A stretch of DNA of 64,000 nucleotides from Spiroplasma eriocheiris (lineage in GTDB: Bacteria; Bacillota_I; Bacilli_A; Mycoplasmatales; Mycoplasmataceae): positions 310,001 to 374,000 of the forward strand of contig NZ_CP011856.1 in assembly GCF_001029265.1 (NCBI RefSeq), given 5' to 3'. This document shows, piece by piece, positions 10,950 through 60,048 of this stretch (within the stretch, counting starts at the first letter, position 1; each line of letters starts with the position of its first letter). A program made the translations under genes and the position numbers. The notes below the pieces were generated by a model. The model made no database searches. It saw only the letters and a list, made by a program, of their open reading frames with translations, and was not told the DNA's origin.

Positions 10950-10987
10950 TTTATTAAGTAAAAAATAAAAAGAAGGTGAAAAAAATA

Positions 10988-13900
10988 ATGTCCGGTTTTA
11001 AGTTATTGTTTCAAAATAATATTAAAAATACAATCAAGAACAAAATCCAATTTATCGGGTTAGTAATTTTAGTATTTTTAACTTGCTTAATTTTTACAAT
11101 AATTGAAGTTTCCAAACAACGTGTTGAAAATGTTTATCATAATTTTATTTCAGAAAAAATGAGTAATCAACATGATTTTGTTGTTGATTTTTCGCAAACT
11201 AGTTATGTTGAAAACACTGCTAGTGGTGCGGACCAGTTTTTAGCAATTTCCGATATTGAAGTTCGTCAAAATGCAATTTTAGATTATTTGCAAGCAGCAA
11301 CTATGAATTCCGATTATCAATTTAATTTTGATTGGGTGGAAGCACGAGTTTTTAACTTAGGTAATAATAAGGTTATTAAAGCAGTGACTCTTAATCCCCA
11401 TCAAGCAATTGATAAATTTGTTGTGAGTGCAGGGATGCCCCTAGGTTTTTATCAACAGTATTTAAATTCATTAAATAATGAAACCATGCATTGGGTTTAT
11501 TTAACTCCTGAATTTGCCAAAAAGAATAACATCAAAATTAATGATGTCATTCGTTTACAAGCTGATAGTTACGGAACAACAATTAAAGTTGCGGATAGTG
11601 AATTACAACCAGTTGATTTAAGTCCTTATCAAAAAGAAGACATTAATAAGTGATTACCAAAATCACCATATGCCAACCAAAATTGGTTCCGGGTAGTTGG
11701 TTTTGGCCAGTCTGCTGATTTTATTACGCCAATCATAGACCAGTCGCATCCGTTTCCAAATATGAAGAATGAAGGGTTAGCATATGTTGACCAAAAATTA
11801 TTTGGGCTAGTCAACGATACTGTCCGTGATGCTAATAATCAAAGCTACGATATTACGAGACTAGATATTACTAAACAAGTCTTAACCCCTGCCAGTCAAT
11901 CTGATCGGGAAGTTTATTATGTTGGAAAATTTACTAATAACTATCGTGATGAGGTCAAGGAAAGTTTAATTAATAATACTCTAAACCCTTATTTAAATAG
12001 CAAACGTGGGGTGACAATTGGTTTACATTCCTATTATAGTAAAACGCTTACGGGTGACACCCCAGTCCTTACTTTCCGTACTGATAAGCGCTATCCGTTT
12101 GCTAAAAGAACAACTTATTTCTTAACAACCTTAAATGGGTTTATTACTGGCTCTTATATTCTCATTGCGGTTATTTTAATTATTTCTTTCTTTGTGTTAG
12201 TCTTAGTTATTAAACGTCAGATTGAAGCTACTGGTCCCCAAAATGGGATTTTACGAGCATTGGGTTATCGTCGTCGAGAAATTATTAGTAGTTATTTAAG
12301 TTATCCACTTTTAATTGCCCTGGTTGGAGGAATTGTTGGGTATTTATTAGGAATTTCAAGCCAGTCAATTATTCGGATTATTTTTGGGGCATACTTTAAT
12401 CTTCCGTATACTGGTTTTGCTTTAGCACCCTGAGCGTTAGTAATTTCTTTTATTGCAGTTTTTGCATTATTAACAGGGGTGACAATGATTAGTGCCACAA
12501 TTATGATGCATTCCAAAACACCTTTGCAACTAATTAAGAAAGAAGAATCGTTTTCTGCCGGACGGATCAAAAAAATTGTTCAAAGAATTTGTACCGTTCG
12601 TAAAACATTTGATAACCGGTTCCAAGCAGTGCAGTTCTCTAATTCATTGGGGAAAATGTTTGGAGTTTCGTTGACAATGATTATTAGTACCATTCTAATT
12701 ACAATTTCAACAACAATTCCGTTTATTTTACAAAATAATATTCGTTATTCTTATGCCGGTGATAATTATAATACCTTAGTTGAATATCAAGCCCCAGTTT
12801 ATAATCTCCCCACAACTTTCTTAAAAACATATGATCCTACTCAACAACCATGAGATATTAATAATAGTGCCCTTAGTGATACTAATATGACGCGGAATGC
12901 CGATCAGTATATTAAGGATTTTGAACAAGCAACGATTAATCCTGAAAATTACTCACCAACTTATAATGCCACTGAAATGCGATCAATGCTATATAAAAAT
13001 ATTTCAAAAGAATTTTTAAAAAGCAATAAGTTAAGTGTTCCCGCTGGTGATCAGTATTTGTCAAGAGCAGTTTGTATGAGTACCTGGGGTGATTATAAAG
13101 ACTATGGGTTAGGAAACTTAACTAAAGCAACGCTTGAAACTTACTTAGCTAATCCTGATACGGCAAAACAACATATTAATGAATTAGAACAGTATCGGTT
13201 ATTCTATTGAAAATATCGTGAGACAATTGCATTAGATGTGAAACGACCACAATACTTCATTAACAATAATTTAAATTTAGATGATAGTTTAAATAGTGAA
13301 TTGTTTACTAGAAGTGATTACCAAAAAAAATTTGGTACTAGTTCGACCATGATTGTTTTAGATAATAATCATTTTCGTCCCGGACTTGAAGCCCCTCTTA
13401 AAACATCATTCCGAAAAGTGTTAGATAGTGGTAATGTCCAAGATTTTAATGCCAATTTAAAAAAACCAATGTATGATTTATATGATTGAATTTATTCATT
13501 CTTTATCAATAATGTTAGCCAATGTTTTACCCAGGGAGTTTATACACGCTCTCCCCAAGCAGTACGAACTGAAATGGCAGCAGCTTTTAAAGATCATAGT
13601 AAAAGTTTTAATTTAGCATTCGGAGTGGTACCGTTTAATCCCCACACTGATAATCGGGGAACAATGTTCCATGGCCAAGTTAATAATATTAATGTTGATG
13701 TCTATGGAATTGACCAGAGTTTTAACAACCAAACTTTAAGTGATGGGAAAAATACCTTAAATAATAAATTATTTGCTAATAGCAATAATATTGTTATTAA
13801 CCAAACCCTTGCTAAAAGGTTAGGATTAACAACTGGTGATCAAATTACAATAAAGGTTCTCCGCCAAGCGTTATTTAAGAATAGTGTAAATGGTTATCAG

Positions 13901-15085
13901 GATGCCCAACAAATTCTAAATAGTTGGGATGAATCACAAGTAACCGGAACTGATAGTAGTGGTCAAACAGTTGGAAAACTACTATTTAATGGTACAAATA
14001 ATTACCAAAATGTGGCCTTAGGAGAGAAGGGAAATAACAAAGTTTTGGATAGTGCTTTAAATCCAAGTGATCCCAATGCCACAAATCCTACTATTTTAAA
14101 TAATAAAATTGTTGATGGTAGTTATCTCTTAGGAAATGATAATGGTGATCAAGTCTTTAATATTGTTGGGGTAAATAATCAGTATGGTAGTGCGCGAGCT
14201 TGAATTAACAATGAGCGTGCCAATACAATTTTAGGTTATGACCAGACCCGTAATCATTTATTACGATTATTTATGAATGAATGACAAAATTCATTTGTTA
14301 AATCCTTACCAACATTATCAGCACCTTATCAAACCGCCCTTAGTGCTTTAGAAACGTTTATTAAAAATAACCAAAGCACCCCAATTAATCAATTATGAAC
14401 AGCTTTTGTTAATAATTTTCAAAAACAAGCATTGGTTGTTAATTGAATTAAGGTTTTTGAAAATGAATATCCACTGTTTAATTATAAATTATCAAGAAGT
14501 CTAACTACTGATGATCTGCAAAGTGGTTTGGCCACTGTTCAAAGTTTTGGGGATTATAGTTTCTATGGATTAAACGGGGGTACAGTTGGAACGACAGTCT
14601 ATCCACCGTATTCCGAAAGTTCATTTAATAATTTATTGCCAATTACCACGGCCAAGGAAATTTTACAAAATTTAGCCCAGGCGGTGTTGGGAGTGATTGC
14701 CTTTATTATTGCAATTTCCTTCATTCTAAGTTTTATGATTATTATTTTAACAAGTAATGTTGTTATTGCTGAAAACCGAACAATCATTGCCACAATGAAA
14801 GTTCTGGGTTATAGTAACCGTTATATTACTAAACTAGTAATAGGAATGTATATTCCTGTTATTGTAATAATGACCATCGCCGGGTTTGGTTTTGGTTGAT
14901 TATTCTTAACAATTGGTATTAATGTGCTAACTAATATGGGAATGGTCTTCCCCCTAATGATGAATGCCGCGATCCCAATCATTGCGATTGCGAGTGGTTT
15001 TGCTTTATACCTAATTGCCTATTTAATCAGTTGATTTAATATGAATAAAATTAATCCGTTGGTGGCAATTATGTCCGCAAATTAA
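10988..15085 (+). CDS. Large FtsX/MacB-type ABC transporter permease
   Basis: This 1365-aa membrane protein is open across many UGA-Trp codons. Its layout is: N-terminal span (about residues 18-38); extracellular region to 380; a first FtsX-like domain (about 385-510) with three spans and the cytoplasmic motif NGILRALGYRRREI; another span (about 558-585); a long extracellular region (about 590-1215); and a second FtsX-like domain (about 1215-1360) with the matching motif IATMKVLGYSNRYI. Such permeases work with a MacB/LolD-type ATPase to move or release lipoproteins, peptides or lipids. No ATPase gene lies beside it; the next one (17778) belongs with its own permease. Two lipoprotein genes follow at 15098 and 16088, probably in the same operon and possible partners. 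The start at 10988 follows AGAAGG; GTG 10976 is within the ribosome site. Confidence 0.88.
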
Positions 15086-46583: not shown

Positions 46584-48662
46584 ATGGCAAAAAAACCAGG
46601 AAGTTGAAAGGCACTTAATAAAATTACAAAAACAGTTAGTGTTGCGAGCCGTAAAAAATCAGTGATTGCTGCTTTTTGTGCGACATTATATATTGGTGCT
46701 CTAATTCCCGGAGCTTATTTTGGTGTTCAATTTTTACAAAATATCCTGAGTTATAATGGAATTAAAACAAATGGAAAACTACCGGATATTAATGAGGGTG
46801 ATTATTTCCAAGTTGATTTTACTAATACTCCCCTTCGGGACAATTTTAAAGGGCAAAAGACTTTTGAAGAATATAATGTACCAGCGAACCCAACAACGGG
46901 AGTTGTTGAGCGTATTAATGTTCGGGCAACTTCTTTACGATTAGAATATGCTTATAATTATATTTTTAACCAAGCACCAAAAACATATATTTCTCGCAAT
47001 TTCCTTTATAAAAATATTTATAAAGACCCGAATAAAATTGCCATTTTTAAAATTTATACTGATGCTTATGCGCAACATGAGTTGTCATTAAAAGATGTTC
47101 AACGAAATAATTTAAATTTAGTTAATAATATCTTATATTTAAAAATTAAATATAATGGAGAAATTCAAAAAAACTTGATTATTATGCCAACCGTTTTTAT
47201 TGGAATAGAAGGGTTTTTATCTAATTTTATCCAGTTTAAAATGGCTGAAAGTATGAAAAAAGATGAAGATAAGCCAATTGTTTGAACAAACCAAAAAAAT
47301 ATTTTAGGAAAACAAGCAAATGGATTAGTTGTCAAGGGTGAAACTAATGGTCTAAAATTAGATGATGAAGTATATGACCAATATCAAAAATATTTTGATA
47401 ATTTATATTTAGAAAATAAAGGGGATAATAAGGAATTTGTTGGTGATTATAACCCTTATAGTAACTTTGTTATTTCTAGTGTTTCTGAACAAGACCGCCT
47501 GGATCCTTCTTTACCACTACCAGTTATTGATGATTATCAATATTTATTTGATATGAATGCGATTATTAATGATTCCAACCATCATTTTAAAACTACTAAT
47601 TTAGCAGTTAGCAATTCATCACCGACTCTTGGTAAAGATATTAAAATTAATACTAAATATGTTCCGCAGTTATTTGTGTTTTTAAAAAATGTTTTAGCAA
47701 CCACAAAAAATCCTAATTTAGTTTTACCAAAAGATATTGTTCCTGATGATTGAAAACCACTTTATGATTTATTAACCCCAAAAACATTGGATATTAATAA
47801 ACCAGAAGAGTTTTACTTTATGTTCTTACCAGAAGGAGAAACAATTCAAAATATTTTAGAAAATAATATTAATAGTCAAATACGGGAATTATTAAATGGG
47901 GAAATTCAGTTTGCTGATTTAGTTGATAAGATGAAAACTGATATTTTAACTAATCCCGCAGACCCCAAATATCAATGGCTATTTAAATGAAATATCCTTC
48001 CTTTTCAAACATATGCCAATAGTGAAACCAGTGATTATTTAAATGTTAAAAAACGAACTATTCAAGAAGCAAAGGATTTAGAAATTAATTTGCCATTTAT
48101 TAACAGTTCGGAATTTATTACAATTGATCATCCCCAATTGCATCATATTCTTAATTTAAAAGGCACAGTAAGTTCACCGGGAATGTTAGATTTTACTAAT
48201 TTAGCCCAACGAAATTACTTATTTAGTAATTATTGAAATACAACAGGGGTTTATGGCACAGCTTCAAATCAAAATAATGTTATTAAAATTGATCCCCGTT
48301 TAGTTAGTGATCCGCACCAATTGCAGAGCTTAATTTTAAAGGAATTTACTAACAATACCTGAAAATTTGCCGAAGATATTAATAACTATACAGCCGGCGT
48401 CTATAATGTTTTAAATGGTTATACTAAAGCTCAATACGAAAGTTCGCTAAGTAATGATTATACTATTGAATATAATGTTTTAAATCAATACCATATTAAA
48501 AATAATTTTAATGCCTGGGCCACTGATTTAGTAAGCGGAGATAGCGCAAAATATTATCAAAATACCGCCTTCGATTTAATTTTAAAATTAAAAAACCCTA
48601 GTGGGGTTGAAAAGCAGTTTCAACAGATTGTTTTCCGTTTTAACTTAGATTATGTAGTATAA
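46584..48662 (+). CDS. Membrane-anchored extracellular protein of unknown function
   Basis: This 692-aa protein is open with many UGA-Trp. It has a basic cytoplasmic start (about 25 residues), a single span (about 26-50; VIAAFCATLYIGALIPGAYF) and a long polar, Asn/Asp/Tyr-rich ectodomain. It has no lipobox. No catalytic motif or clear repeat is seen. It shares this anchoring layout with the 993-aa protein at 53311. A GAAAGGTG site precedes the ATG. The lipoprotein gene at 48728 follows after 65 bases, with a possible internal promoter (TATAAT at 48678). An adhesin-like or complex-forming role is inferred. Confidence 0.8.
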
Positions 48663-48727: not shown

Positions 48728-50971
48728 ATGAAAAGGTTATTAGCAATCTTAACGGCAACCATGTTAGCAACTTCGTTAGTCCCAACGTTGGTTGCGTGTG
48801 GTAATTCCCACTCCGATATTATTGATGGGAAAAAGAATGTTTCAACTGAATTTACTTTAACCAATAGCGTTTATGTTTCTTCGGAAACAAAAGACATTAA
48901 TGCTGATATTTTAGCCGCGGCTAAAAAAGAGGGGCGAATTGAACAAGGACTTGATCTCCACATGGGAGATATTACGGACCAGGAAAATAATACCTTACCT
49001 CCTAATAATGGTGATCAAGAAGCAGGTTATATTGTCTTTACCTTAAAAGATAAACCAGAAATTAGTTATATTGGCTCAATTACAATTTATTTTACTCTTA
49101 TTAATAGTAGTCCCGTTGATATTACCCAAGACGTTGACCTCTCAGTTACGTTAAAAGATGTTACTAAATATGATGATTTAACAACACTTCAAAATGAGAT
49201 TTGAGATGAAGCTAAAACACAGTTTACTGCTAACACTCCCGATAATATTAGTGGCTATGATTTATCAGGTTTAGCATTACCAACTAAATTTAACCAACCA
49301 TTAAGTGAACAATTAATTGCTAAATATAATGGGAAGTTTGATAGTGGTATCAAAAAATACAAGGGAACAATTACAATTAAATTAAATATTATTAGCTATT
49401 ATATTAACTTACCCCTAGAACTTAAAAATGATGTTGGGGATAAAGATACTTTATACCAATTTATTTGGCAAAATGTTAAAAATAGTCCGGAATTTAGTAC
49501 TGATCCCCGCGTTTCTGCGAGTTATAAGGATTATGACATTGACTTTAGTAGTGTCGTTGAACCTGGACGTGGCCAAAGCACCAACTTTAAGTTCTTAGCA
49601 ACTCCGAAAGATGAAAGTGTTAACCATTATCTTCGTGTTGAAGGAAGTTTAACGAAAGATCCTTATACAATGCCAAAAGACATAAGTTTAGCAGTCCCAA
49701 TTATTGTTTATGAAAAAGATCGTTATCAAGTTGATAAAGCAAAAGTTTGAAGTGATGCTATGGCAATTGCTGGCTTACCGGTAACACCTGAAATGAAGGA
49801 TTTTGATCTAAGTGGTTGAGATGCAGTAATTAGAAATAATTGGCCAAATATTGGGACAAAACATGCCATTACGTTAGTTGCTAAAAATAACAATACTAAC
49901 CCTGTCTTTAAAGGTGATACAACTATTCATGCTATTATTATGAATGATGGGGTGGTCAAAACAATTAATACTGGTCCCATATTATTATCAGCTGCTTCAA
50001 ATCCAACTGTTGACTCAATATTTGTTTCAACTTGACATAATGCGGTTGGTCAATTTGGAGGAGAAATTTCAACCAAATCAACAGATTATGTCGATAGTAA
50101 AGGAAATAGTACTATTGATAAATCAGGATTAGAAGCTGCTTATAAACAAGCGGTTGCAACTAAAGGATGAACCGATTATGCAATCAAAGCTCGTGGTGAT
50201 GCGCAAACAACCGGGAAAGATGCTGATTTAACAATTACCGGTAAGTTACGAATTATTGATAGTCCGTTAACTAAACCAGTTCCAATTAACTATTCAACCC
50301 GGGATTATAAATTTAACCAAGATCCCGCAACGATTGATCGTCAAATTAAAACATTAACTACAAGAATTTGAAATGATATCATTGGTTACTCATCATTTAA
50401 TAATGAAGCGTATACTTTATATGGAGTGTCAAAAAAAATATCTGCTTGGGATAGTGACTATGAACAAAAAGTTGCCGCGGCAATTAAAAACTTTACCCCC
50501 GGGGGAAGTCCAAATATTCCACTAGAATTAAAATTCAGATTAAAAGACCAAACTATCTATCAGGGCGAAATGACTGTGCAGATTACTTTAAAATATGATA
50601 GTAATAGAATTCCAATGAATCCTAGTGGCGATCCAATTGACGCAACAGCAAATGGACCATTAGTGTTCTACTTAGATAACTTAAATATTCAAAATCCAGG
50701 ACAATATATTAGAAACTTAATGATAACAATTTGACATAATGCAATTACTTACAACTACGAATTGCAGAAAAAATACCCAAATCTGTTATTACCAACTTCA
50801 AACTATAATTACTGAGATGATGAAGTTGTGAGCCGGGTAGTATTACCAACAGTTGATAATCCAGTTTCGGATATTACTTTAGATAACATTATTCCAAAAT
50901 ATAATGGTTTATATGAGGGAACAGTTATTATTAAGATTAAAATTATTTATGATATTAATCATCATCCATAA
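48728..50971 (+). CDS. Large lipoprotein with repeated modules
   Basis: This 747-aa protein has a lipoprotein signal (MKRLLAILTATMLATSLVPT, lipobox LVAC, Cys24). In the mature part a short pattern (hydrophobic-hydrophobic-Trp-polar-x-Ala/Val) recurs at Trp 159, 247, 341, 436, 548 and 669 (for example IWDEA, IWQNV, VWSDA, TWHNAV, IWNDI, TWHNAI), each followed by a strand-rich segment that ends in a glycine strand such as YKGTITIKL, FKGDTTIHA or YEGTVIIKI. This indicates about six modules of 88-121 residues. Most of these Trp are UGA. It is expected on the outer face of the membrane, likely with an adhesive or structural role. Confidence 0.85.
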
Positions 50972-50997
50972 GAAGAGGAAATCCTCTTCTTTTTTTG
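50971..50997 (+). terminator. Rho-independent terminator
   Basis: AGAAGAGG and CCTCTTCT (8-bp perfect stem, 4-base loop) then T6, starting at the last base of the stop of the lipoprotein gene. Confidence 0.92.
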
Positions 50998-51012: not shown

Positions 51013-51042
51013 TTGCCTTTTTTAAGTAAAAAATGCTATAAT
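51013..51042 (+). promoter_or_regulatory. Promoter of the tetraspan/RavA-ViaA operon
   Basis: TTGCCT (51013-51018) and an extended -10 TGCTATAAT (51037-51042 for TATAAT), 18 bases apart, lie just after the preceding terminator and 55 bases before the first gene. Confidence 0.7.
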
Positions 51043-51097
51043 CAAAATACGAATTAGGTAAATTCGCAGATAGGGCATAATAAAATGGGTGAGATTG

Positions 51098-51760
51098 ATG
51101 GCCAAAATTAGTGAAAATCAAGAACTAACTTTACAAGAAACAATGGTTGGCGAAGATAATCAACAACAACCATCTTTTTTAGCGAATTCAGAACCGGTTA
51201 ACCAACCAGTTTCGCTTCCAGAAGATTTACATCTTACGCGGATGTATTTTAGTAGTCCCGCTGAAATTTTTGGCCGATTATTTATTTTAATTTCCCAAGG
51301 ATTAATGTTGGGCGTGATTATTATTGTTTCTGCTTCTTTAGCAATGATTGCCACAACGCAGTTACCAATTCCTGCCGCTTTTAACCAATTTGGAGTAGCA
51401 GATGGTGTTTTTCGCGGAATGACAGTAGTGATTGCCGTGGGGGGCGTTATTTTTAGTCTAGTTTTTGTCATCCCAATTTTAATTGTCCGTAATATTCGGT
51501 TAGTAAAACTAACAGGGATCTTATTAAATTCACTAGGTTTTTTATTCGGTTTAGTAATGTTAGGATTAAGCATTGTTTCTTATTTGTACATTCCCGTGCG
51601 GTTAAATTTTCCCGGGTTTATTTTAGCTGCTCTTTGCTGTCTATTAATCTTTACAGGTAGTGTGTTATTATGAAGTGCGGCCATTCATAAAAAAAGCAAA
51701 TTACGAAAAGCAATTGTGGCTAGTGAACAGTTTACAGCAGTTATTAATCCTGAACAATAA
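51098..51760 (+). CDS. Tetraspan membrane protein (first of four paralogues)
   Basis: This 220-aa protein has a polar N-terminal tail (about 55 residues), four spans (about 60-84, 108-132, 138-162 and 170-192) and a short basic tail. Motif PAEIFGRLFILIS precedes or begins the first span, and the second span ends with VIPILIVRNIRLV. The same two motifs recur in the genes at 51773, 52547 and 56311. It has one UGA-Trp. ATG 51098 is chosen; TTG 51095 or GTG 51089 are possible. It is the first gene of a closely packed operon with RavA- and ViaA-like genes. Function unknown. Confidence 0.82.
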
Positions 51761-51772
51761 GGAGGTGGGTTA

Positions 51773-52519
51773 ATGGTTAACACGGAAGAAAAATTATTAT
51801 CTAATAATTCCGCGGAAGAAACCCCTCCCGTGCGTGAATTAAAATTTGTGGAAGATGATCGCCCGGAGAGTCTTAAAAAATTGGATCGTACCGTTAGTGA
51901 AAAAGTGACAAGAAATTTAGGAAGTTATGAATTAAAACAACGAATGCAGTTTAAGCATCATGCTTATAATTATGATCTAGGAGCATTTCGTTATTATTTT
52001 AAAGATTCAGTAGAAAGTTTTGGGCGAATTGCAATTCTTGTTGGTTCGCTAATGATGATTATTACGGTGGCTCTATTTATTTATCCCTTAGCCCAAACAG
52101 CGACCAGTGTTATTTTATCAATTATTGGATCGAAAACCGGGGGGATTGTTGGTTCAAACCTTGATTTAGTAAAACCTTATCTGCAGATTGCCATTATTAG
52201 TTTATTATTTTTATGGTTAGCAATAACTATTCTTATTGTAGTACCGATGTTAGTGTGTCGAACAATTAAAACAATGCGAATTTGGTTAGTTGTGGTGGGC
52301 ATTATTGGCACTGTGAATGGTCTGGGAATAATTGGTTTGGCGGTTGTTTATTCATTATTTATTGCTAATCCAACTAATTGAAAGGCCACAATTTTAGGGG
52401 GAGTAGCGTTAGTAATCTTTTTGTTGGGAACTATTATTGTTAGTGTTAATTTAAAACATTATTATCGGGAACTAGAAAATAATGTGGCACAACAAATTAG
52501 AACAATTCGTACTCGTTAA
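51773..52519 (+). CDS. Tetraspan membrane protein (second of four paralogues)
   Basis: This 248-aa protein has an acidic/basic cytoplasmic tail (about 80 residues), then the shared motif SVESFGRIAILVGSLMM at the first span, further spans near 125-150, 162-188 and 206-228, and the shared sequence VVPMLVCRTIKTMR after the second span. A strong AAGGAGGTGGG site lies before the ATG. It starts 12 bases after the previous gene. It is similar to its neighbour in layout and in the two motifs but not closely in sequence. Confidence 0.82.
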
Positions 52520-52546
52520 TATTGTGTGATGAAAGGGGGCAACAAT

Positions 52547-53275
52547 ATGATTGGAAAAGTAAGCACTAAACGCGAAGAACTAGCGTTACAATGAAATACG
52601 CGGATTGAAGTTGCAACCCGACTTTTAATTCTGGGTTTTTCAGTATTAGGAATGTTTATGGGCTTTTTCTTAGCCGCTGGTTGTGCAATGAGTTTTAATT
52701 ATATTAAGAATATTACCGGCTTAATTACACACCAAGCCTTTGAAACACAATACATTATTGCGGGAGTTATTGGGTTAATTATTAGTTTATTCTTTTTTGC
52801 TTTCATTGGAGTTCCGTATTTACGACTACGCCGGGCAACAAGCTTTAAACCATGAATTATTACTTCTACTGTTTTTACCTTATTTTATTATCTTTTTGGT
52901 ATTGTGGTGATTTTTTATTTTTGAACCCAGTATAATTATCATAATAATTATTTAATTATTGCCCTAATTGGGTTTATTATTTGTCCGCTAGTAATTATCA
53001 TTTGTTATGCCTTATTATGACGAGAAGTTGGTAAACAATGAAAATTACGCAAAGTAGCAGAGTATTTACAAGATGAAAAAAGTTTTCGGGTAAAGGATGA
53101 GAAATTAAAAAGATTAGAGCAAGAACGGTTAACTTTAATAGAACAAGAAACTTATAAATATGAACAGGAAAAGTTAAAATTAGAAAATCTTCATCCAAAT
53201 GACCATATTTTAAACCAAGAAACAGTTGTCAATGAAGCAGCCATGGTTGATGTCGATGTTGATAATCAGCAATAA
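52547..53275 (+). CDS. Tetraspan membrane protein with coiled-coil tail (third of four paralogues)
   Basis: This 242-aa protein with several UGA-Trp has a short N-terminal tail, four spans (about 24-48, 70-93, 105-125 and 134-155) and a C-terminal charged coiled coil (about 160-220; EKSFRVKDEKLKRLEQERLT). The shared motifs appear as IEVATRLLILGFSVLG and IGVPYLRLRRAT. An AAAGGGGGC site precedes the ATG. The coiled coil may dock a cytoplasmic partner such as the AAA+ or VWA protein. This partner idea is inference. Confidence 0.8.
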
Positions 53276-53310
53276 CATTACCCAATAAAAAATACGAGGA
53301 GGTGAATTAT

Positions 53311-56292
53311 ATGAGTGATAATTTTAAGGATAATGAACAGGTATTATCTCCACCAATTAAGCATAAAACCCGTCGAATTAATAAAAAAACTAATTTAAGA
53401 ATTTTTGCTGTAATTGGTTCAGTGGCGATTGCCTTAGGGTCGGCCGGAATGATTTATGCTTTTGTCGCGCCTTCTTCATATAATGAAACTGACCCGTGAC
53501 GAGATGCTATTCCATTAGGAGATAAAATTACCAATTATATTAATGGATTATTATCCAAAGATTTAGCCCAACCCGAAAATCTTAATACCTATGTTCATTT
53601 TACTTTGTCAGAAAAACCAACGATTGATAATTATGCCAATAGTAAAGATACCGATTTAATTCGAAATGTCTTCCAAACGAGTGATTGAATTAGTGCCGAC
53701 TTAACGAAAGTAGAAGCATTACTAGCGGGGACAGGAGCTAAATTATCAGGAACCAATATTATTTATAAAGGTTCTCAAATGAAATTGACCTTACTACCCC
53801 GTGTGTTAAGTTATCCTTATAATGCTGGGGATGATAAATATGGTCTAATGTATTTAGATACGAGCGCTGCAAAGCAAGGAATGTTTAGTTACAAAATGCG
53901 CTTTGCTTTGGAACTGGTGGCCAGTGATGGTGCTAATAATTATATTGATTTAAAAAAACGAGTTGATTATTGATATGAAATCCCACATTTAATTACCATT
54001 GCGCAGTTGTTAAATTTAGCAAATAATTCTGAAATTCAAAAGTTTATTCAAGATACCAAGTTAGATTTGAATACTACTAATGAACAACTTTTAAGTAAGT
54101 TATTAAAACAGTATTATCGTTTAAATAATGATGATCACAACCAAAATATTATTGTTAACCAAGAAATTACTGGTATTAATGATAGACCATTTGCACCAAT
54201 TAAAACAGCGGGGGCTTCAGCAGATGATTTTGCTGTCAATGTTTTATATGATAGTCGTAAAATTAATAGTTTTGACCAGTTAGGAGCTAGTTTATTCAAT
54301 AATCACCAGGCGGGTTATGACACAATTGCCAAAATTTTTAATACCTTAAATGTCCAAATGCCAATTTTTTCCAATGTTGGTGGCAATGGGGGGTTTACTC
54401 GCTATGATAAAACTCCTGTTAAACCAAATCCCCAAGATAATTTTGGATTACCAATGGGAGCTGAAAAAGTTAATAGTTATCAGGGTTATATTAAAGACTT
54501 AGGGGTTGAAAGTGATAATATGCAGATTTGAAATTCTGAGCACCAAATTTTTCATAACCAAGTGCAAATTGACTTTTTAGATACCAAACGAATACCCACG
54601 GATTTATACTATAACCAACAAACTTATACTAATCGGGCCCTTAATTTAGATAGTTATCAGTATCTGAATGACTTTCAAACGCTTGTTGATAATATTCAAT
54701 ATGATGACACCAATGCTGCGCTTGATTTACGTTTGACCCAGCTAATTCCGATGGCTAAAAATAACTTGACGAGATATTTATGAAATAATTTAAATGATCC
54801 GAATGCTCCGCGGGATGTTAATTTAAAAGAATTAACAATTTCAACAAATGGGACCAGTGAAATTCGGGGAACAACTAATTCCTTAAATCCCCCTGTTAAC
54901 GGGCAAGAGCGGGGGAATGTTAATAAAGTTTATCAAGATCGTGTCTTTACTCTACCGAAAGTTAATGTCAAAGCTACTTTTTGATTAAATGATGCGAAAA
55001 CACAAACAAAAGATATTAAAACGGCTTTCACTTTACCATCAAAAGTTGTACTAGATTCTCGTGGGGTTGATAAAAATGATTTAAATACCCAATGAATAGC
55101 TAATAAAGTTAAAGATAAAATTAGTCGTGAACGGTTTTCGACTTTAACTAGTCAATATACTTTTGAAAATAAAATTAAAAGTACTTTTTTAAACACCACG
55201 GTGGAATGAGCGCGCGCCTTTCCTCACGGAACCAAAGGAGAATATCCAGTTAATTTACCAATTTTGAATGATTTTAATTTTGATATCACGCCCCCTAATG
55301 GTCGCAATAATGGTAATAATTTAAAAGTAGGAGCTTATAGTGTTAAAGTACAGGCTTTGGGTTCCTCGTTAAATTTTCAAGGAGTAACAACTTTCGCAAA
55401 CATCCAAGTTGTTAAAGCTAATTTTAATGAATTATCCTTACCGATGCTTTCAATGTCAACGATGGATACCAATGCTGCTTTATACAAGCGAATTCAAGAA
55501 AGTATTATCCGAACTGCTCGGGATAATGGGTTAGAATTAGAAACAAGCGATTTTACAATTCTGGGTCTTGACCCTAATGATCAAAATCACTTGATTCCTG
55601 GCCATCAAGCAATTCGTGTTACGGCTGGAGGCGGTGATAGTTTAATTAGGGGCGATACTACAATTGATGTAACAGTTGCAAAAGCCAATGTAGAAAGTTA
55701 TTTGGGAAATCAAATTAATTTAAGAGCTTATACGATGAATGATCATGGTAATGATATTATTGCCCAAGCCCAAGAACAATTTCGAAAAGGACTTAGTGGA
55801 TTAAATTTAGACCAAAGAATTATTAATCAGTTTAATTTTATCTTATATGAGCCAAATGGTCGGATGGCAAATCCGAACGAGAAATTAGTGGGCGGATTAT
55901 ATACCTTAACAATTATTGCTGATAATAGTGGGGATAATCCCTTCTATGGTAGCATTCAAAAAGAGATTAATGTTCCTCGCGAAAGCTTAGATAAAATAAG
56001 AACGGCGATTACGGTTAATGCTAACGAAATTAATTTAGCGGCAAGCCCCGCCCCAACAGTTCAAACGTTACAGAATAAGTACCAAAACAAGATTTTCAAT
56101 TATTTTAATCAAAATAATTGAAATCTTAGTAGAATATCCTATAATATTGAAGTAAAATTAAATAATAATTGGTTACAACCAACCACCCAATTACAGGCTG
56201 GGAATTATTATATTAAGATTAGCTTTACTGGTGATTATTTAGAAAATGGGTTTGTAGAATTTAACATAACTCTCCAAAACCCAACCCAATAG
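53311..56292 (+). CDS. Large membrane-anchored extracellular protein with modules
   Basis: This 993-aa protein begins with a basic cytoplasmic tail (about 29 residues), one span (about 30-52; IFAVIGSVAIALGSAGMIYA) and a large Asn/Asp-rich ectodomain. The last 300 residues show about three modules that begin with a charged helix (for example DTNAALYKRIQESIIR, GNDIIAQAQEQFRKG, LQNKYQNKIFNYFNQ) and end in a glycine strand (RGDTTIDVTV, FYGSIQKEINV, ENGFVEFNITL). The same helix-then-strand plan is seen in the lipoprotein at 48728. ATG 53311 lies five bases after AGGAGGTGA. It sits inside the tetraspan/RavA-ViaA operon, so it is likely the surface part of that system. Confidence 0.85.
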
Positions 56293-56310
56293 AAAGGAAG
56301 AGTGATAAGG

Positions 56311-56982
56311 ATGAATAAAAAACCAACTTATGGTAGTAAATTTCCTGATTTAGAGTTGCTTGATAACGCTGAGCAACGAGCTAAATATGAAGAAGAAATT
56401 GCGGAATTATCAGAACAAGAACAAAAGAAATTTAGTTATATTTCACCAACTCAACATAATGATTTTTCCCAACGACGTATGTACTGAAGTAGTACGATGG
56501 AACAAGTTGGTCGGGGATTTATTATTTTTGCCCAAATCTTAGCAATTACTCTTGCCTATTTTATTGGTCAAAAAGTTATTTTGATTGCCGTTGGTAGTTT
56601 TGTTAATCCAAACTTAGAAATTACCAAGGGAATTTATGTTCGTGATTTTTTAGCATATGGATTCTTAATTATTACAGTTTTATTTGGTTTATTATATTTT
56701 ATTCCAATGGCGATTTGTCGTACAGCCGGGGCAGTTTATGGGTGAGCAATTACTTATATTATGTTAGCAATTTTATATTTCTTATTCTTAGAAATTATTT
56801 GTGCTGTTTTATTAGTTTTATCAAGTATTAAAGTATCATCAAATGATAGTGGTGATATTAATACTTGAATTCCAGTTTTTATGATTGTCGTGTTGGTAAT
56901 TACTTCAATTTGAATAGTGGGTGCTTGTATTTTATTAGTAAAATCTGATGATGTAAAACGTAAAATCAGTTTAGAAGTGTAG
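56311..56982 (+). CDS. Tetraspan membrane protein (fourth of four paralogues)
   Basis: This 223-aa protein has an acidic cytoplasmic tail (about 58 residues), then the shared motif STMEQVGRGFIIFAQILA, and spans near 65-88, 108-130, 140-165 and 185-210. After the second span comes FIPMAICRTAGAVYGWA, matching the P-x-x-x-x-R motif of the other three. UGA codes Trp several times. It starts 18 bases after the 993-aa protein gene and ends 12 bases before the AAA+ gene. ATG 56311 or GTG 56302 could start it. Confidence 0.82.
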
Positions 56983-56994
56983 GGGGAAGATAGG

Positions 56995-58470
56995 ATGACA
57001 TTAACACAAAGATTAGAAGAGTTAACGAAACAATTACAAAAAGATGTTTATGAAAAAGAGGTTATTTTTAAGTTAGCAATGTTAGCAATGCTTAGTGGCG
57101 AATCAATTTTTCTATTGGGGAAACCCGGGATTGCGAAATCATTAGTCGCCCGTCGTCTTAAACATGCTTTTAAAAATGGAACAATTTTTGAATATTTAAT
57201 GAACCGGTTTTCAACTCCCGAAGAAATTTTTGGTCCAATTTCAATTGAAGATTTACAACGGGGAGTTTATAAACGACTAATAGATAAATACTTACCAACT
57301 GCTGAAATTGTCTTCTTGGATGAAATTTGAAAAGCGGGGCCTTCAATTCAAAATACCTTATTAACAATTATTAATGAAAAGATTTTTCGAAATGCTGGAG
57401 TAGACATTAAAGTACCGATGAAATTATTAATTTCTGCTTCGAATGAATTACCAGCGGAAGGACAAGGTTTAGAAGCTTTATATGACCGTTTTATTATTCG
57501 TTATATTGCGCAAGGTTTAAAAGAAGAGGAAAACTTTAATGATATGATTGCAGGGGTTACCAATTTAGATGTCCAAGTTGATGAGGCCTTACAAATTACC
57601 CATGAGGAATATGATGTGTGACGAAAAGAAATTAACCAGGTTAAAATGGAACAAGATACTTTTGATTTTATTAACCGTTTTCGTAAAGCGATGTATGTTG
57701 CCACCGAAGGACAATATTATATTTCGGATCGGCGTTGAAAGAAAATTGCGCATTTAATGAAAGCATCGGCTTATTATAATGGCCGCGATACAGTTGATAA
57801 ACCGGACTGGTTAGTCATTCCTTATTGTATTTGAGATGATGAACAGCAAGAAGAAGAATATACAGCAATTTTTAATGAATTTTATTTAGATGCGTTAACA
57901 TTTGATGTTAAGCAAAAGAAAATTCGTCTTGATAAGGAACTAGAAGAATTAGCGCATCAATATGATGATATTCAAGAATCAATTAGTAAAAAAAGTGAAT
58001 ATTATGATATTTTTGATGGGAAAGTGCAGGGAACTTTTCACCGGATTTTTTGATCAGATGCCCAATACCCAGTGTGTTTCATTCGGGTAGAAGATTTTAT
58101 TGATGCTCGTCATAATAAAGAACAACCAACCTTAGTTGAATTATACTATGGAGAAGACTTAGATAATATGCATGATGTTATGCAAACAGAAGTTATTTAT
58201 TTAAATGATAAAACATTAAAAAACTTAACTTTAAATTCTAACATGACTGTTGAAGTTAAAAATGCTAAAGGGGATAATAGTGCCGCTGAAATTGAGCGAA
58301 AAATTTTAGCCGTTGAAAAAGAAATTGATAGTTTAGAAACTGCTTTTCCTGATGAAAAACACCGTCTTTTAGCTGAACCATGTATTTTCTTCAAAGAAGC
58401 TTATTATTTAGCAGTTAATAATGCTTTTGATGGCCAAGAATTAAAATTTGATGAATCAACACCTAATTAA
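56995..58470 (+). CDS. MoxR-family AAA+ ATPase, RavA-like
   Basis: This 491-aa ATPase has an N-terminal AAA+ domain with Walker A GKPGIAKS (residues 42-49), Walker B VFLDEIW (Asp109-Glu110, Trp coded by UGA), sensor 1 [11 protein letters not shown] and the arginine-finger stretch [10 protein letters not shown]. The C-terminal half, with a helical region and a beta-rich end, is like the RavA family. MoxR proteins act as chaperones that activate or assemble protein complexes together with VWA proteins. The VWA gene follows by 15 bases. A GTAGGGGGAAG site precedes the ATG. Confidence 0.9.
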
Positions 58471-58485
58471 AGGGGGAATTTGTTG

Positions 58486-60048
58486 ATGAAAGGGTATTTA
58501 GAGGATCGCTTAGATAAAAAAATGAATACTTACTTATCTAAACTAAAAAATCAGGATTTGCAAAATCCTCATTTTGTGTTGTTTAAACAAAACAATAAGT
58601 GATTAGCTGATACTTTTGATCAGCAAATTACTGCTTTTTATGATGAAAAAATTAAAAAAGAAATTCGCAGGATTACCTTACCGAGTGAAATGGAAAAAGA
58701 AATTTATTTATTAAACTGGGTTAAAGTTAATGGTTATAGTGCTTTAAAGGAAAACTATGCCAAAACTCAAGATTTTTTGTTTAAAGTTAAATCACCATTT
58801 TATGATCGGTTAAATTTTTATCGTTATGAGTTCAATAAAAAAGATAATGATCCCTCATTATTATTTAAAGATTTTATTAATAGTTGAGAAGGAATCTTAA
58901 TTAAACGAATTGCAGATTATCGCTTTGCGAAAATTGAAGAATTACGAAATAAGTATTTGCAAGAACTTTATAATCGGATTGAAATTATGCAAAAAACTAA
59001 TAAGCTACTCAAAACAGTTTGAAACTTTTTTGGTTTAATGTGAAGCCCAGAAGAAAACCTAACAAAAAGTCTAAAAATGGATGCCATTGAAAAATTTGCC
59101 GAGTTTTTAAAACAAAACCCTGCTATTATGGAAATTGCTACTTTATTAGGGCGCTACCATGGGGAAAGCAAGTTAATTGAGGAAAGATTAGCTGAAGAAA
59201 TTGTGATGGATTATGAATGGCAGCCAATTGGAAATTCTCCCGAAGAAATTGTGGGGGCCACTGAATCAAAAGATTTAGAGCATATGTTTCCAGCGGAATT
59301 AGTTCTTTTAAAAGATCCTGTATTAAAATACATTTTTTATAAAAAATTTATTGAAGGAAAACTAACTACTTTTGAGTTTATTTCGCAGGATCAGGTCCCG
59401 GTTGAAAAAATTAAATTAAATATTGTTAAAACGAGAGTTCCCGAAGAAAAAGGGCCAATTATTTTATGTATTGATACTTCTTCATCAATGCGGGGAAACC
59501 CTGAACAAATTGCCAAGGCTTTATCTTTAGCAATTGTTAAAATTGCCTTGCAAGAAAAACGCCCTTGTTATATGATAAATTTTTCAACTAATTTAGATGT
59601 CTATGATTTTTCTTCTGTTCGTAATTCCGTTCCAAATTTAATTAAATTTCTATCAAAAAGTTTTAGTGGGAGCACTGATATTGAGCCAGCAATTAACCAC
59701 GCATTAAATGTGATGGAAAAAAATGAATATTTTAATGCTGATTTGTTAATGATTAGTGATCTTTTAACCTCTGATTTATCAGAACGAACAACTGCAAAAA
59801 TTAACCAGTTAAAATTACGCCGTAATCGTTTTCATGCAATAGTAATTGGTACAATGGGCCATGAATCACCAGCAAGTGCTTTTGACAATGCTTGAATCTA
59901 TGATCCACGTGATCCTTTTGCATCTGAACGAATTATTGCATCGTTAACTGACCAAGTCGGAACTAAATATAATAATCATCCCGAAGCCAAAAATTTGTTA
60001 AAATTAATTAAGGAAGGAAAGGTGGATCTGAACTATGATAAGCAATAA
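58486..60048 (+). CDS. VWA-domain protein, ViaA-like
   Basis: This 520-aa protein has a helical N-terminal domain (about 1-300) and a C-terminal von Willebrand A domain (about 325-490). The MIDAS is complete: DTSSS (Asp330), the Thr in FSGSTDIEPAINHAL, and the Asp in ISDLLTSD. GPIILCIDTSSSMRGNPEQI and EKRPCYMINFS match E. coli ViaA. In that species RavA and ViaA act together at the inner membrane. The last 14 bases overlap the dUTPase gene. Here the target is more likely the tetraspan/ectodomain proteins of the same operon; this is inference. Confidence 0.9.

Follow-up and report, generated by a model that had tools for sequence, protein, structure and literature searches.

A family of four tetraspan paralogues encoded with large surface proteins and a RavA-ViaA-type pair in Spiroplasma

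Pairs formed by a MoxR AAA+ ATPase and a VWA protein act by remodelling particular client complexes. In Escherichia coli, ViaA serves as the link between RavA and the membrane-bound complex Frd (PMC10585395), and ViaA and RavA both bind anionic lipids and alter the lipid composition of the membrane (PMC9489729). Similarly, it has been suggested that NorD, the partner of NorQ, uses the metal ion-dependent adhesion site (MIDAS) in its VWA domain to engage an acidic patch on NorB, a membrane protein (PMC9976466). The role of RavA-ViaA is little understood, with the clients so far proposed in E. coli being respiratory complexes and lipids, and searches of open-access papers turned up no description of a MoxR, RavA or VWA protein from Spiroplasma or the Mollicutes. 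Analysed here is a stretch of 64,000 bp, termed the window, from Spiroplasma eriocheiris (contig NZ_CP011856.1, positions 310,001 to 374,000), the genome of which is a single contig of 1,365,714 bases in which TGA is read as Trp (genetic code 4). The window harbours a conserved cluster comprised of genes for four tetraspan proteins (T1 to T4), three large surface proteins (EX1, LP and EX2) and a MoxR AAA+/VWA pair of the RavA-ViaA type, in the order EX1-LP-T1-T2-T3-EX2-T4-RavA-ViaA. The preferred reading, to which a probability of around 60% is assigned, is that T1-T4 constitute, with EX1, LP and EX2, a membrane and surface complex serviced by RavA-ViaA. An initial annotation, made from the sequence alone, had drawn attention to the four tetraspan genes; the RavA-ViaA genes directly 3' of them, the interleaved genes for surface proteins and a transcription unit running from T1 most likely through ViaA are additions to it.

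The four tetraspan genes, like the rest of the cluster on the forward strand, begin where the initial annotation had placed them when read in code 4: T1 at 51098..51760 (220 aa, one TGA read as Trp, alternative GTG start at 51089), T2 at 51773..52519 (248 aa, one TGA), T3 at 52547..53275 (242 aa, five TGA) and T4 at 56311..56982 (223 aa, four TGA). Translation with table 11 was rejected, as it leaves T1-T4 truncated or broken where code 4 gives a continuous series of genes. Each protein has four hydrophobic spans, and the two motifs originally quoted, one entering span 1 and a Pro...Arg motif following span 2, were found letter for letter. The first of these is longer than had been noted, approximating to [TRK]xYFxx..E...R[LIV]xI[LIF], with W-N/S-S/T replacing YF in T3 and T4. 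A polar N-terminal tail, ascribed to all four proteins, is lacking from T3, in which span 1 is preceded by only about 25 residues and which instead possesses a long charged C-terminal tail of around 89 residues.

Homology was assessed using hhalign comparisons of orthologue profiles, each built from 12-21 relatives, with sequence-reversed controls and 30 other multi-span families serving as background. The full-length profiles of T1 and T2 matched with an E value of 3e-16, T1 and T4 with 7e-12, T2 and T4 with 8e-12 and T3 and T4 with 1.7e-9, compared with a best value of 3e-4 from the reversed controls. The T1-T3 and T2-T3 links were weak, at 8e-6 and 2e-5 respectively in full-length form. One unrelated family with four transmembrane spans and a charged tail scored 2e-5 with full-length T3, all other background families remaining above 5e-4; once the T3 tail had been removed, the best value across all background families was 4e-3, and that between T3 and T4 was 1e-9. 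By profile comparison, T1, T2 and T4 are securely one family, to which T3 is linked mainly through T4, and it is close to certain that all four are paralogues, as had originally been suggested. The accompanying expectation that they would be missed by simple search was not borne out, as a BLASTP comparison of T1 with the orthologues of T2 gives E values down to about 1e-9.

Alignment of 23 diverse family members found the span 1 Arg to be invariant (23/23) and the span 2 Pro nearly so. In a tree, each of T1-T4 forms a single clade with high support, and hence the duplications predate the genus, without recent copying. Searches of Pfam, NCBIfam, PADLOC and PDB sequences returned no family for T1-T4, EX1 or EX2; matches to FA_desaturase, EPS_sugtrans, MAG0110, PIH1 and 3psq were dismissed as being far below cut-offs and judged compositional. 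T1-T4 all have the attributes by which the family is defined here, namely four spans, an invariant span 1 Arg, a Pro...Arg motif leaving span 2 and profile homology. All members detected come from Spiroplasma, and of the 395 genomes sampled in a class-wide search, only those of genus g1 yielded the T4 family. A different protein of three to four spans with a charged tail lies downstream of ViaA in f5 and f9 loci (L043 ORF 17, L046 ORF 13, L052 ORF 16; ORF, open reading frame), and has no profile relation to T1-T4.

Structural models were generated for T4, from 18 sequences, and T3, the most diverged copy, from 16, with mean predicted local distance difference test (pLDDT) scores of 70 and 69 respectively. 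The helices span residues 62-95, 110-135, 139-173 and 181-221 in T4 and 19-57, 63-93, 97-129 and 134-214 in T3. In both models the conserved Arg is located six residues into helix 1 (R68 in T4, R25 in T3), and the Pro (P132 and P90) precedes the end of helix 2 by three residues and is closely followed by a basic residue. The two predicted structures are therefore of one topology, with both motifs at matching places; the common fold and aligned motif residues anticipated by the initial annotation are supported by the profile matches above background, by the separate clades of the tree and by the two concordant models, and neither of the outcomes that it had named as contrary, differing topologies or absence of a profile match, was observed. 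The charges of the loops place both termini and the loop between spans 2 and 3 in the cytosol (N-in/C-in), which brings both motifs together at the cytosolic face of the membrane. Searches with Foldseek and VIA-align for T4, and with Foldseek for T3, retrieved only generic four-helix bundles, which does not imply a new fold; the best structural Z score was about 11 and Foldseek E values were 0.5 or greater, the chance level for helical bundles. The membrane domains of synaptogyrin, claudin, TARP, LRRC8 and pannexin have loosely the same arrangement as the T4 model, those of claudin, TARP and synaptogyrin scoring Z of 8-10, equal to unrelated helical bundles.

The distribution of the family was surveyed in 25 genomes, the named relatives all being Spiroplasma (S. 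poulsonii, S. phoeniceum, sp. TIUS-1, S. ixodetis and insect endosymbionts). The source genome has exactly four members, all within the cluster, with no fifth detected even at E <= 10. Four copies are likewise present in 14/14 system-bearing genomes of groups g1 and g10 (13 of genus g1, plus TIUS-1), three intact copies in 4/4 f9 genomes (one having an additional decayed copy), two in 4/4 f5 genomes and none in G007, G022 and G073, these counts deriving from a profile that includes members of the counted groups and could miss very diverged copies. The three genomes devoid of T proteins are also devoid of RavA, ViaA, EX1 and EX2, whereas RavA and ViaA are both present in all 22 of those bearing T4, with the end of T4 separated from the start of RavA by just 8-25 bp. 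This adjacency persists in S. phoeniceum P40 (L035, G005), in which T1-T2-T3-EX2 is inverted and apart from T4-RavA-ViaA. In a joint RavA-ViaA tree, the T-associated pairs, drawn from three GTDB families, fall on one side of a branch with a Shimodaira-Hasegawa-like approximate likelihood ratio test (SH-aLRT) support of 95, the root being insecure. The copy number fixed within lineages, the strict single-copy orthologue groups and the all-or-none loss favour the original suggestion of a hetero-oligomer rather than redundancy, insofar as T1-T4 are likely to be non-redundant subunits; their physical association is proposed.

Some loci depart from these arrangements. In G088, a second site (C1:862617-865636), separate from the main T4-RavA-ViaA locus, carries T copies, one of which is T4-like and decayed and contains several stops. 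In G008, RavA is split into ORFs of 253 and 245 aa beside an intact ViaA (L067:13932-15409), through a frameshift, sequencing error or recent loss. RavA-ViaA pairs without T genes occur downstream of a helicase-like gene in genera g8, g11 and g12 (L047-L049, L055-L066 and L070), some also being accompanied by a surface-like protein of around 530 aa.

The RavA-type gene (56995..58470) encodes a MoxR AAA+ core with Walker A (GKPGIAKS) and Walker B (IVFLDE) motifs and an AAA lid, confirmed by matches to bpMoxR (E = 6.8e-49) and AAA_lid_8. The core, residues 2-332, matches PRK13531 (E = 3.6e-106) and the RavA structures 3nbx and 6sza; the score of 356 bits is far below the NCBIfam equivalog cut-off of 681 and the match extends only to residue 332, hence the protein is termed RavA-type rather than a RavA equivalog. 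Residues 333-491 have no Pfam match beyond chance, the LARA domain included. The gene around 10 bp downstream (58480..60048) encodes a protein with a C-terminal VWA_2 domain (E = 1e-7) and an intact MIDAS starting DTSSS, which matches PRK10997 over most of its length (E = 2.5e-84) and is likewise called ViaA-type, as its 284 bits are below the cut-off of 500. With PADLOC, used to look for known anti-phage defence systems, there were only generic AAA matches to the RavA-type protein and none for other members of the cluster. The complex I and LdcI families were not found in the source genome, and PF00890, the FrdA-type domain, was matched only by short fragments, none of FrdA length; with these E. 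coli-type partner families not found, RavA-ViaA would need another client.

The surface proteins are encoded on either side of T1-T3. EX1 (46584..48662, starting at the ATG at 46584 of a frame open from 46527) has a cytosolic N-terminus, GSWKxLNKITKxVTVASxKK, followed by one span and a large ectodomain. LP (48728..50971) is a surface lipoprotein of 747 aa with a lipobox ending VACG, kept in genus g1; its match to NF038029 (LP_plasma) is weak (E = 6e-4), with 20.3 bits against a cut-off of 24. EX2 (53302..56292, with a likely ATG start at 53311), which lies between T3 and T4 in genus g1, has one span and an ectodomain of around 930 aa. For orthologues in the rest of the genus, identity to the window proteins is about 80% for RavA, about 68% for ViaA, 67% for T4, 61% for T1 and 52% for T3, compared with 46% for EX1, 37% for EX2, 33% for LP and 31% for T2; on the whole, the system changes slowest on the inside and fastest on the outside, with T2 as an exception. 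The same gradient can be seen within proteins. Across families, identity to the window protein is 69-76% for the cytosolic loop and C-terminal tail of T4 and 33% for its outer loops, with K211, D213 and D214 of the tail invariant, and the cytosolic parts of T2 and T3 are likewise more conserved than their outer parts. Similarly, the N-terminal segment of EX1 is 45-65% identical across families, compared with 22-44% for the ectodomain, and is recognisable in f9 loci, and weakly in f5, despite differing ectodomains. Similarity between EX2 and the ectodomain genes in the same position in f5 and f9 was not detectable. In S. poulsonii (G002, L040:5275-13405), EX2 is in several pieces, a 150-aa ORF is repeated and one segment of EX2 is duplicated in inverted orientation; all T genes are intact.

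From T1 to ViaA, the intergenic gaps are around 9-35 bp. This part of the cluster is probably a transcription unit of its own, based on two consensus matches: a terminator-like hairpin with a T-run 3' of LP (50970..50991), and a promoter-like TTGCCT-18-TATAAT sequence, with TG, 5' of T1 (51013..51042). Elsewhere in the window, at 10976-15085, is a gene for a 1369-aa protein resembling FtsX/MacB-type ABC permeases with large external domains, adjoined by several lipoprotein genes.

T1-T4 may be viewed as four non-interchangeable subunits descended from one ancestral N-in/C-in tetraspan protein, which would form or organise one membrane complex with EX1, LP and EX2. A RavA-type AAA+ hexamer and a ViaA-type VWA adaptor would assemble, remodel or recycle this complex, acting on it from the cytosolic side. 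They might dock on the conserved cytosolic face, where the E...R motif enters span 1 and the P...R motif leaves span 2, and chiefly on the invariant VK(S/A)DD tail of T4, which could plausibly offer the ViaA MIDAS an acidic ligand. That this branch of RavA-ViaA serves a co-encoded complex of tetraspan and surface proteins is suggested by the operon linkage and joint loss, by the failure to find the E. coli client families here and by the NorQD and Frd precedents. A number of observations weigh against this proposal. Among RavA-bearing relatives, 28/50 have RavA-ViaA without T genes, and so the pair must have other clients, and in G008 T1-T4 persist with an interrupted RavA. At least three genomes (G001, G002 and G011) have a broken EX2 alongside intact T genes, and EX1 is located elsewhere or inverted in some, meaning that constraint is looser on the surface proteins than on the T core. 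In addition, T1 does not exhibit greater conservation inside than outside, and the structures are single-chain models with a mean pLDDT of about 70. The series of two T genes with one ectodomain gene, three with two and four with three suggests stepwise growth of one complex, albeit across three lineages. A more elaborate version, for and against which the evidence is evenly poised, envisages a hitherto undescribed, Spiroplasma-specific surface machine in which four paralogous tetraspans form a heteromeric core that carries three giant ectodomain proteins as subunits. A RavA-ViaA branch of its own would build or drive this machine from inside, and subunits would have been added stepwise in different lineages.

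The same series can be interpreted differently, with each tetraspan dedicated to a single surface protein as its partner or escort, and T4 as the shared link to RavA-ViaA. Intact loci have one more T gene than they have ectodomain genes (2/1 in f5, 3/2 in f9 and 4/3 in g1 and TIUS-1), and the cytosolic tail of EX1 is conserved with the T set; nevertheless this is rather unlikely, given that the rule is founded on three lineages, that decay of EX2 can leave every T gene in place and that the same two motifs in all T copies suggest a common assembly interface. Less probable still is that the tetraspans are a channel or transporter for small molecules or lipids, or a membrane-shaping assembly, regulated by RavA-ViaA, with the surface proteins as substrate-binding parts. 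The loose resemblance of the up-down four-helix bundle to synaptogyrin, claudin, TARP, LRRC8 and pannexin, and the effects of E. coli RavA and ViaA on lipids (PMC9489729), would accord with such a function, but these structural matches are at chance level, spans 3 and 4 of T4 contain no invariant charged residue and Pfam and NCBIfam gave no match to a transporter family.

It is highly improbable that the T proteins are redundant or variable surface paralogues undergoing antigenic variation and merely co-transcribed with a housekeeping RavA-ViaA. Surface lipoprotein families do expand in Spiroplasma, and the ectodomains of the EX proteins and LP diverge fast; the T proteins, however, have short outer loops, occur as one copy of each per genome in four separate clades, and are fixed in number and lost jointly with RavA-ViaA, with the tree and copy number leading to rejection of this idea. 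There is a similarly slight chance that the resemblance, at least of T3, reflects convergence of amphipathic tetraspans of similar composition, as might be supposed from the direct T1-T3 and T2-T3 matches of only 2e-5 and 6e-5 in the tail-removed run, and from the unrelated four-span family that scored 2e-5 with untrimmed T3. Against this, the trimmed T3-T4 match stands well clear of its background, and the E...R and P...R motifs occupy equal helix positions in the models of two proteins encoded in the same operon.

A serviced complex of T1-T4 with EX1, LP and EX2 would provide a concrete candidate client for RavA-ViaA, as the pair in wall-less Spiroplasma is tied to dedicated membrane and surface genes. 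The nine-gene system offers a setting for testing how a MoxR/VWA pair acts on a membrane complex, brings in a tetraspan family, so far uncharacterised, whose number of paralogues is fixed by lineage, and represents a candidate surface apparatus in a genus that counts insect symbionts as well as plant and crustacean pathogens among its members. Eukaryotic tetraspanins, claudins and TARPs, which work by partnering other membrane proteins, resemble T1-T4 in having four spans with N and C termini inside; T1-T4 have no sequence match to any of these and resemble them in structure at chance level, and unlike tetraspanins they have no CCG motif and no large second loop, the loop between spans 3 and 4 being 12-21 residues. 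Of the trait of a MoxR/VWA chaperone with a dedicated and usually co-encoded client complex, co-encoding and co-loss with the T and EX genes can be seen, and action on the client is proposed. NorQ-NorD is likewise a MoxR/VWA pair with a membrane client, cNOR, although this is a metalloenzyme, whereas the candidate in Spiroplasma is an undescribed set of tetraspans with large ectodomains. The E. coli RavA-ViaA pair, which works at membrane complexes, is similar in its adjacent genes, its AAA+ core and VWA matches and its DxSxS MIDAS; by contrast, the Spiroplasma pair is encoded together with dedicated genes for membrane and surface proteins that E. coli lacks.

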